Assembly: GCA_016223045.1 (NCBI GenBank)
Contig: JACRPT010000067.1
Coordinates: forward strand, 1,768 to 41,553
DNA length: 39,786 bases
Reading direction: 5' to 3'
Source of the DNA: Candidatus Eiseniibacteriota bacterium
Lineage (GTDB): Bacteria > Eisenbacteria > RBG-16-71-46
Shown: positions 1,518 through 3,715 of the stretch, in pieces
Layout: every line of letters starts with the position of its first letter
Position numbering within the stretch: position 1 is the first letter of the stretch
Notes under the pieces: generated by a model
Seen by the model: only the letters and a program-made list of their open reading frames with translations
What the model was told of the DNA's origin: nothing
Database searches by the model: none
Made by a program: the position numbers and the translations under genes

Positions 1518-1817
1518 ATGGACACCAAGAACCTGGTCGAGGTCCAGATCTTCGGCCACGGCTACACGATCCGCGGTGAGGCCGACCAGGCGTACATCCT
1601 CGGCGTCGCCGCGTACGTGGACCGCAAGATGCGCGAGATCACCGAGAAGCTGCCGGTGGCCTCGCTTTCCAAGGAGGCCGTGCTGGCCTCCCTCAACATC
1701 GCCGATGAGCTGTTCAAGGAGCGCGCCCTGCGGGAGCAGCGGGACCAGGAGCTCGGCGACCGCGCGGCGCGGCTCAACGCCGTGCTGGACGACTTCATCC
1801 GGAGCGGCGCGTCGTGA
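1518..1817 (+). CDS. zapA: Cell division protein ZapA
   Basis: ZapA binds FtsZ and bundles protofilaments at the division ring. The 99-residue protein has the family layout: a small N-terminal globular domain (VEVQIFGHGYTIRGEADQ) with the conserved Y-I-x-x-V-A-x-x-V-D-x-K-M core (AYILGVAAYVDRKMREI), the helix SKEAVLASLNIADELFK, and a C-terminal coiled coil (LREQRDQELGDRAARLN). Length matches the family. It follows a coiled-coil gene and precedes the 6S-like RNA by about 55 bp, a zapA-6S neighbourhood known from several phyla. Confidence 0.93.
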   Translation: MDTKNLVEVQIFGHGYTIRGEADQAYILGVAAYVDRKMREITEKLPVASLSKEAVLASLNIADELFKERALREQRDQELGDRAARLNAVLDDFIRSGAS

Positions 1818-1871
1818 CGGGGCGCGGGGCGCTCCGGTGGCACATGCATTCCCTGCCGTGCTCGTGATGCA

Positions 1872-2052
1872 ACGCAGTTCTTGAACCAACAGAACTCAAG
1901 CAGGGTTTCCCGGTGGCCGGCGACGCCGCGCCGCGGCCCGGATCCGGCGCCCGAGGTCCCCCGGTGGGGACGCGGGGCCGCATCCGGGCCCGCGGAGGGC
2001 CCACCCGGTCGAAGGGGAGCCCACCTGGCTCGCCAGGTCTCAAGAACTCCCG
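1872..2052 (+). ncRNA. ssrS: Candidate 6S RNA
   Basis: The non-coding stretch between zapA and rny folds as a long rod about 180 nt long, the shape of 6S RNA, which binds and sequesters housekeeping RNA polymerase. I see: a closing stem pairing 1876-1887 with 2036-2048 (AGTTCTTGA/TCAAGAACT, then ACC/GGT past one bulged C); a second stem 1899-1906 with 2023-2030; a large open central region (1907-1930 against 1996-2022) corresponding to the promoter-mimicking bubble; an apical stem 1931-1943 with 1982-1995 (13 bp, one bulge); and a terminal hairpin 1956-1961/1966-1971. The TTGAACCAA segment at 1881 resembles a stretch of E. coli 6S. Ends are approximate. Identity rests on fold and location, without a covariance-model hit. 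Confidence 0.7.
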
Positions 2053-2082
2053 GGCACACGGCATCTCGGCGGGGATCCTTTC

Positions 2083-2122
2083 CGGCCGGCGCCGCCGGCC
2101 GCGGCTCCCGCATCTTCGCGGG
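2083..2122 (+). terminator. Two tandem GC hairpins after the 6S-like RNA
   Basis: Two perfect inverted repeats lie between the 6S-like RNA and rny: CGGCCGGC/GCCGGCCG (2083-2090 with 2094-2101, 3-nt loop) and CCCGC/GCGGG (2107-2111 with 2118-2122). There is no T tract, so this is not a classical intrinsic terminator. It may mark the 3' boundary of the RNA or form a structured rny leader. Confidence 0.35.
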
Positions 2123-2152
2123 CACCCGGCCGACGGCACCCTGGGAGTCCCC

Positions 2153-3715
2153 ATGAATCCTCTGACCTGGATCGGCGGCATCGTCCTCGGTGCCGTCGTG
2201 TCGTTCTTCGCCGGGTACGTCGTGCGCGCGCGTATCGGGCGGCGCAACCTGCAGAGCGCGGAGCGCCTCGCCCAGAGCGTGCTCGAGCAGGCCGGCCGCG
2301 AGGCCGAGTCGGTCAAGCGCGCCGCGGTGCTCGAAGGCCGCGAGGAGGCGCTGCGCCTCAAGCAGCAGGTGGAGCGCGAGACCCAGGAGGCGCGCAACAA
2401 CCAGCTCGCGGCCGAACGCGCCTTCCAGGAGAAGGAGGCCGCCTTCAACCGGCGCGTCGAGCTGATCGAGAAGAAGGACCGCGACCTCAAGCGCGCCGAG
2501 AACGACCTGCGCGAACGCGAGGGCGCGGTCGAGTCGCGCAACACGCAGCTCGACCGGCTGCTCCAGGAGCAGACCACGCGGCTCGAGAAGATCGCCGGCA
2601 TGAACGCCGAGGAAGCCCGCCAGCAGCTGCTCGCCGCCATCGAGAGCGAGGCGCGGGCCGAGGCCGCGCGGCGCGTCGCCGAGATCCGCGAGAACGCCCA
2701 GCGCAACGCCGAGCGCGAGGCGCGCAAGGTCATCGGGCTCGCGATCCAGCGCTTCGCCGCGGACCACGCCTCCGAGTCTTCGGTGTCGGTGGTGCACCTG
2801 CCGAGCGACGACATGAAGGGGCGCATCATCGGGCGCGAGGGCCGCAACATCCGCTCCTTCGAGGTCATCACCGGCGTGGACGTCATCATCGACGACACCC
2901 CCGAGGCGGTGATCCTCTCGGGATTCGACCCGGTGCGCCGCGAGGTCGCCCGGCTCGCCCTCGAGCGGCTGGTCGCGGACGGCCGCATCCACCCCGCCCG
3001 CATCGAGGAGGTGGTGGCCAAGGTCAAGGTCGAGGTCGAGAACAAGATCCGCGAGCTGGGCGAGATGGCCTGCCTCGAGGTCGGCGTGCACGGCATCCAC
3101 ACCGAACTGCAGAACCTGCTCGGGCGGCTCCACTACCGCACCTCTTACGGCCAGAACATCCTGAGCCACTCGATCGAGGTCGCGCACCTGGCCGGCATGA
3201 TGGCGGCCGAGATCGGCATGGACCAGAAGATGGCCAAGCGCGGGGGCCTGCTCCACGACATCGGCAAGGCCATCGACCATGATCGCGAGGGCACGCACCC
3301 GGCGCTGGGCATGGAGGTGGCGCAGCGCTACGGCGAGCCGCAGCCGGTGCTCGAGGCCATCGGTTACCACCACGACGACTTCGCCGGCGGCAGCCTGTGG
3401 CCGGTGCTCATCTCCGCGGCCGACGCGATCTCGGGCGCGCGGCCGGGCGCCCGACGCGAGAGTCTCGAGATCTACATCAAGCGGCTCGAGGCGCTGGAGC
3501 GCATCGCGAACACGTTCCCCGGCGTCGAGAAGTCCTACGCCATCCAGGCCGGGCGCGAGGTGCGCATCATGGTCGAGCACAACAAGGTGGACGACGCGCG
3601 CTCGCAGGCGCTGGCCAGCGAGATCGCGCGCCGCATCGAGAAGGAGCTGGAGTACCCGGGCCAGATCCGCGTGACGGTGATCCGAGAGACGCGCGCGGTG
3701 GACTACGCGAAGTAG
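2153..3715 (+). CDS. rny: Ribonuclease Y
   Basis: RNase Y is a membrane-anchored endoribonuclease that starts mRNA decay. At 520 residues it matches the usual length. The N-terminus is a membrane helix ([20 protein letters not shown]), followed by a long coiled coil (about residues 30-190). Then come a KH domain with the GxxG loop in [11 protein letters not shown] and an HD phosphohydrolase domain with [12 protein letters not shown] and a later YHHDD. I place the start at 2153 because the anchor begins right there and a GGGAG lies a few bases upstream. The same frame is open back to a GTG-type start at 1913, but that would add about 80 Pro/Arg/Gly-rich residues ahead of the anchor and run through the 6S-like RNA. 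Confidence 0.96.

Follow-up and report, generated by a model that had tools for sequence, protein, structure and literature searches.

A 6S RNA gene upstream of rny

The 335-nt gap between zapA and rny in the stretch of DNA analysed here (39,786 nt from a Candidatus Eiseniibacteriota genome, hereafter the window) almost certainly encodes a 6S RNA, as homology, structure and synteny all indicate. A 6S RNA had been proposed for this gap from the letters alone, and the identification is borne out: the Rfam model RF00013 (6S/SsrS), searched with an E-value threshold, matches 1847–2079 from its first to its last position (1–187 of 187; 39.8 bits, E 2.2e-6), and this is its sole match in the genome at E ≤ 10. 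The covariance search that the original prediction had proposed thus gives a match, but one that misses the curated cut-off of 46.4 bits, a value that serves annotation and is no biological property; a scan of the window at the Rfam cut-offs reported one tRNA and left the gap empty. Since an earlier set of 35 sequences contained the window's own, a model was rebuilt from 34 relatives with that sequence excluded (R3), and this leave-one-out model gives 1847–2079 a score of 119.9 bits (E 1.2e-30), the runner-up in the window reaching 4.3 bits. On three genomes of the class that belong to neither model set (L137, L138 and L139) R3 scores 72.6–89.8 bits, and 6S RNA in other phyla is also detected by a model of class relatives. 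The RNA shares with RF00013 the full-length match, the closing stem, the central bubble, the hairpin on the 3′ side, the apical arm and the adjoining zapA; it differs in its length (233 nt against 187 model positions), in a 51-nt apical insert and in its score below the cut-off. It is an ordinary 6S RNA of enlarged form, and one that a routine search skips.

The gene order in the window is pheT, a ZapB-like gene, zapA, the gap, rny and an open reading frame from 3878 that was used as ymdB. The features around the gap are:

1201–1497, + strand: ZapB-like coiled-coil gene upstream of zapA (start set by eye; in the frame of the open reading frame 787–1497)
1518–1817, + strand: zapA, cell division protein ZapA (PF05164, E 1e-19)
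1847–2079, + strand: 6S RNA gene (ssrS), 233 nt (RF00013, leave-one-out model R3, fold)
2143–2147, + strand: probable rny ribosome-binding site, GGGAG (by eye, 5 nt before the ATG at 2153)
2153–3715, + strand: rny, RNase Y of 520 aa, true start (TIGR03319, PF12072, relatives' alignments)

The ZapB match is weak (20.3 bits against a Pfam cut-off of 31.5), and the position of the gene is shared with many relatives. The window comes from a metagenome-assembled genome, and its RNase Y shares 82% identity with the one in a Candidatus Eisenbacteria record.

Structure and extent of the RNA

Folded alone, 1847–2079 reaches −143.3 kcal/mol against −112.0 (s.d. 5.5) for shuffled sequences (z −5.68), none of 200 shuffles being as stable, and its lowest-energy fold has the 6S shape of closing stem, large bubble, small hairpin on the 3′ side and long apical arm. 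The rod with a large central bubble and an apical stem that had been described beforehand was therefore recognized correctly, while its extent was not: it had been given as about 180 nt over 1872–2052 (z −4.89 when folded alone), and since homology sets the ends at 1847 and 2079, for a length of 233 nt, that span omits most of the closing stem. The parts of the RNA are:

1850–1874, + strand: closing stem, 5′ side (lowest-energy fold; helices 1 and 2 of alignment A1, which covary)
1885–1902, + strand: central bubble, 5′ strand (unpaired in the lowest-energy fold)
1903–2022, + strand: apical arm, lengthened in the window (lowest-energy fold)
1940–1990, + strand: 51-nt insertion in the apical arm (extra against the model of relatives in the R3 alignment)
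2023–2038, + strand: small hairpin on the 3′ side of the central bubble (lowest-energy fold; helix 5 of A1)
2051–2075, + strand: closing stem, 3′ side (lowest-energy fold; helices 1 and 2 of A1)

The low Rfam score, the lowest among the family members that RF00013 matches, may be due in large part to the insertion at 1940–1990. That score and the large insert could alternatively mark a degenerate, non-functional 6S gene. We regard such decay as very improbable, given that the fold preserves closing stem, bubble and 3′ hairpin, that these align to the leave-one-out consensus at a mean posterior of 0.99, and that enlargement is not confined to this genome: 6S RNA measures 185–197 nt in 13 of the 16 family members and 223, 230 and 233 nt in the other three, the last being the window's own and the first two belonging to two other genera.

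Conservation in the class

Covariation was assessed over 36 consensus pairs in 35 aligned sequences, the window's included; in the apical arm the quality of the MAFFT alignment is low, and only the first six pairs of the arm entered the test. In these sequences 94.1% of cells are paired (87.0% when shuffled), 17 of the 36 pairs are changed on both sides (9.8 in shuffles) and so are 89 cells (29.6 in shuffles), and not one of 500 shuffles matches the observed pairing or the two-sided changes. Sliding the partners by one base lowers pairing to 45–50%.

RF00013 finds matches in 41 of the 59 genomes searched, the window's own included, and exceeds its cut-off in 38, the window's genome not being among these; in most of the 38 the match sits at the zapA–rny locus. 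A model of class sequences (R1) detects 6S RNA in 40 of 47 class genomes, of which 35 had contributed sequences to the model and five had not, and in all 26 that are at least 90% complete and at most 5% contaminated. Six of the seven class genomes without an R1 match likewise have no detected rny, which is what one would expect of incomplete metagenome-assembled genomes that lack the contig; one of the six, G025, holds an RF00013 match of 49.0 bits that is not beside zapA or rny. In the seventh, G017, the rny contig starts about 200 nt upstream of the gene, with a ZapA-like C-terminus recognizable by eye and no 6S RNA between the two. The genus g12 seems to lack the RNA, which was not found in any of its three genomes (G011, G015 and G017; 79, 65 and 87% complete); rny was not detected in G011 and G015 either, and G017 has rny without 6S RNA in front of it. 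Second 6S copies occur in G020 and G022 (L034 4049–4225, − strand; L041 651–835, + strand) with neither zapA nor rny alongside, the one in L041 lying slightly below the Rfam cut-off.

The start of RNase Y

The open frame in the register of rny runs from 1913 to 3715 and thus reaches back into the RNA gene. That a start at 1913 would be a false N-terminus overlying an RNA had been claimed at the outset, and rightly so: TIGR03319 matches the 520-aa protein beginning at 2153 with 712.7 bits over residues 10–520, PF12072 covers residues 8–205, and many relatives' proteins align from residue 1. Protein-level conservation of 1913–2152, which had been named as a ground for refutation, was not found: from the 6S start up to the start of rny, the rny frame of each of the 15 family relatives carries one to three stops, and on these grounds the segment was rejected as a coding extension. 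At class level, this frame is interrupted by at least one stop across the 6S RNA in 36 of 38 loci. For a genuine N-terminal extension of RNase Y one might cite the frame of the window, open back to 1913, the two exceptions in the class (G030 and G034, both outside the family), and tblastn searches with the 80-aa extension, which give matches within the 6S region in 11 of the 15 relatives of the family and further matches in three genomes beyond it, in one case on the opposite strand. In six of the 11 relatives, however, the matches lie only outside the rny frame, so that nucleotide conservation of the RNA explains them, and with the stops and with RNase Y profiles that begin at residue 8–10 of the shorter protein the probability of an extension is practically nil.

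A longer gene order ending in rny

The linkage to zapA that had been part of the original prediction holds in the window, where the 6S gene starts 29 nt past zapA, and across the class: among 43 long 6S loci in 41 class genomes, zapA lies upstream at 38, rny at most 300 nt downstream at 38, and both at 36. The seven exceptions comprise a contig edge (G013), a zapA overlooked by that search and recovered by blastp (G040), two loci at which the 6S gene follows zapA and ymdB comes next, rny not being found downstream (G024 and G028), and three with neither neighbour (G025 and the second copies in G020 and G022).

Outside the class, 15 of 80 rny loci of named genomes, chosen from outside the Clostridia-like majority of the 80, were scanned with Rfam, and six have a 6S RNA over the cut-off upstream of rny. 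At the Deltaproteobacterium, NC10 and Nitrospinota loci ygfA (5-FTHF cyclo-ligase, PF01812) stands between 6S and rny; at the Myxococcales, Krumholzibacteriia and Desulfobulbus loci no ygfA was found there, the gaps measuring 63 to 397 nt, and the ZapA of Desulfobulbus is 0.1 bit short of the Pfam cut-off. A second phylum, that of G051, has 6S RNA in 56 of 60 genomes, and at the best 30 of these 56 loci zapA is upstream in all 30 and ygfA followed by rny in all 28 with downstream room. The record named Nitrospinota (L116) belongs to this phylum and hence is no independent case; beyond the two phyla the long order, with or without ygfA, is represented by five single loci. At seven loci with zapA near rny and no 6S RNA over the cut-off (six of the 15, and L070), a search with an E-value threshold matched only L089 (Ignavibacteriales; sub-threshold 6S, E 0.0016). 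No 6S RNA was detected at the KSB1 and Zixibacteria loci, where zapA is 124 and 80 nt from rny, nor in the zapA–rny gaps of L067, L070, L081 and L102 (246–801 nt).

The beta- and gamma-proteobacterial neighbourhood zapB-zapA-ssrS-(ygfA), as described in the available part of PMC7641849, resembles that of the window in having ssrS directly after zapA and ygfA as an optional member, and differs in what follows, an EVE-domain gene there and rny here; its main text contains neither 'rny' nor 'RNase Y'. The known zapA-ssrS-ygfA order belongs to a longer order that ends in rny and is kept in two phyla, and the position of 6S beside rny is a conserved arrangement and no peculiarity of this genome. 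PF01812 is unmatched in 43 of the 47 class genomes, the window's among them. The simplest history would be an ancient zapA-6S-ygfA-rny order from which ygfA was later lost in this class. The 5-FTHF cyclo-ligase family is found in four of the 47, all of family f10, in open frames of 273–291 aa.

6S RNA was reportedly surveyed across bacteria in 2014. Our literature search, which left most subscription journals uncovered, found no paper joining '6S RNA', 'RNase Y' and 'zapA', and none joining '6S RNA' and 'Eisenbacteria'; the zapA-6S-ygfA-rny order may have been published already.

Transcription of rny

In the window 73 nt with 82% G+C separate the 6S RNA from rny. In family f5 the distance from the 6S 3′ end to the rny ATG is only 23–25 nt in eight relatives with 6S RNA (two of the ATGs set by eye), which leaves no room for a promoter, so that transcription of rny in f5 has to cross the 6S gene or begin within it. 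A scan of window positions 1700–2250 found no sigma-70-like promoter, an absence that says little because the scan assumes the E. coli consensus, and no terminator-like site was found in the window at the 3′ end of the RNA. Because the f5 spacers are short and the window spacer holds no promoter-like site, zapA, 6S and rny are most likely co-transcribed, with the 6S RNA as leader of the rny mRNA, and we hold this to be probable. Such a transcript would resemble that of E. coli, in which ssrS and then ygfA lie on one dicistronic RNA that is processed (PMC7641849, in the part available), with rny as the partner here.

Termination may add a further layer. At least seven T within the 12 nt spanning the 6S 3′ end occur at one of 16 family loci, against 15 of the 27 other class loci, at which the closing stem runs into a T-rich end. 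Partial termination at such an end may set the amount of rny.

Over 2080–2147 the spacer of the window is taken up by a single structure:

2080–2146, + strand: hairpin filling the 6S–rny spacer (lowest-energy fold)

Its base pairs the bases that follow the 6S RNA with the rny ribosome-binding site. The layout recurs in 14 of the 16 family members with unlike sequences and lengths; tested member by member against shuffles it gives p values from 0.00 to 1.0, three of them at or below 0.055, and is weak singly. An alternative hairpin, in which post-6S bases that repeat the 5′ arm of the 6S RNA in several family members could pair with its 3′ arm, was dropped as no better than shuffles in the window (p 0.44; among the 16 members only G003, at 0.017, and G006, at 0.051, reach about 0.05).

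The hairpin over the ribosome-binding site, together with the position of the RNA upstream of rny at most class loci, might suggest that the region acts in cis as a structured leader of rny, with only a resemblance to 6S and no mature 6S RNA as its product. This we consider highly unlikely: the RNA also follows zapA in G024 and G028, where rny was not found downstream, in the second phylum ygfA separates it from rny, and the whole of the 6S model is matched, and the model of class relatives recognizes 6S in other phyla.

Function and maturation

As a rod with an open bubble at its centre, 6S RNA mimics melted promoter DNA; it occupies RNA polymerase with the housekeeping sigma factor when growth slows and is released from it by the synthesis of short product RNAs. 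By homology the RNA of the window would work like other 6S RNAs, by binding the polymerase. It would be cut out of the zapA-6S-rny transcript as a mature RNA, the candidate enzymes being RNase Y and RNase E/G. We infer that the 6S RNA of the window is expressed, transcribed together with rny and matured, and that it binds the polymerase.

RNase Y as the obvious 6S processor for want of RNase E was rejected, since RNase E/G is encoded in this genome. The related idea, raised with the original prediction, that RNase Y processes or degrades its neighbour and that this underlies the gene linkage can appeal to the conservation of the 6S–rny neighbourhood in two phyla. That linkage, however, also fits simple co-transcription, or an inherited order from which ygfA was lost, and with a second candidate nuclease in the same genome we think it unlikely that the linkage reflects RNase Y acting on 6S RNA.

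A short 6S-like RNA

The 6S searches also caught shorter RNAs, about 104 nt long, whose ends are 6S-like and which lack an apical arm. A model built from seven of them (R2) finds exactly one in each of 31 of the 47 class genomes, 24 of these having been unused in its construction; that of the window's genome lies at G000:C22:17808–17906 (L169 1501–1599, − strand), and the relatives' loci are within L148–L177. The short RNA carries an almost invariant GCTGATCC segment. In 30 of the 31 sequences, whose alignment was fitted to the structure of the model, which favours covariation, pairing is 91.2% against 78.5% when shuffled, 139 cells are changed on both sides (52.3 shuffled, 0 of 500) and 18 pairs are changed on both sides (14.2 shuffled, 1 of 500). 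Rfam searches with an E-value threshold over 11 of the loci returned two matches, both of them weak 6S matches (E 0.0024 and 0.0088). The ends resemble those of the 6S RNA of the same genome in 27 genomes (z 1.9–8.0), a likeness biased by the discovery of the first seven through it and by the inclusion of the ends in R2. The short RNA is present in G011, G015 and G017, the genomes of genus g12 in which 6S RNA was not found, and is possibly an arm-less 6S paralogue. The lack of an RF00169 (SRP RNA) match in the window's genome had raised the idea of a divergent SRP RNA, which was rejected as a separate SRP RNA over the cut-off is present in 37 of the 47 class genomes. Near the short RNA, one genome of f1 and one of f2 encode small proteins (L178 1039–1344 in reverse-complement coordinates; L180 5000–5308) that, read by eye, we take to be like the microcompartment vertex proteins EutN/CcmL.

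Discussion

The 6S RNA described here adds a member from an uncultured phylum, one that annotation at the Rfam cut-offs overlooks in this genome. Its place in front of rny bears on a genetic link between RNase Y and RNA polymerase in Bacillus subtilis, where suppressors of an rny deletion duplicate the polymerase core genes or, when duplication is prevented, carry mutations that strongly reduce the activity of the polymerase (PMC8266666, in the part available), and where RNA polymerase binds the rny mRNA (PMC11077062, in the part available). The available text of PMC11077062 states that the biological explanation of this link is not yet known. The 6S-1 and 6S-2 RNAs of B. subtilis are of the same type as the RNA of the window and bind the sigma-A holoenzyme, and transcript parts flanking 6S-1 are enriched along with it; in contrast to the window, the 6S gene bsrA is flanked there by aspS and yrvM, not by rny, and no 6S leader on the polymerase-bound rny mRNA is reported in that text (PMC11077062).

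A read-through transcript would place an RNA-polymerase-binding domain before rny, followed by the hairpin over the rny ribosome-binding site, and a 6S leader on rny would physically tie the rny mRNA directly to RNA polymerase. One might go further and propose that beyond the Proteobacteria 6S RNA is a fixed member of the rny transcription unit and, in this phylum, forms the leader of the RNase Y mRNA itself, so that polymerase occupancy, the maturation of 6S RNA and the synthesis of RNase Y would be adjusted jointly. We offer this broader scheme as speculation that is unlikely to hold; if true, it would mean that a brake on RNA synthesis and a main RNA-decay enzyme are balanced from one transcript. 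If 6S RNA and rny are indeed transcribed together, bacteria with this gene order would offer a means of testing the tie reported between RNase Y and RNA polymerase.
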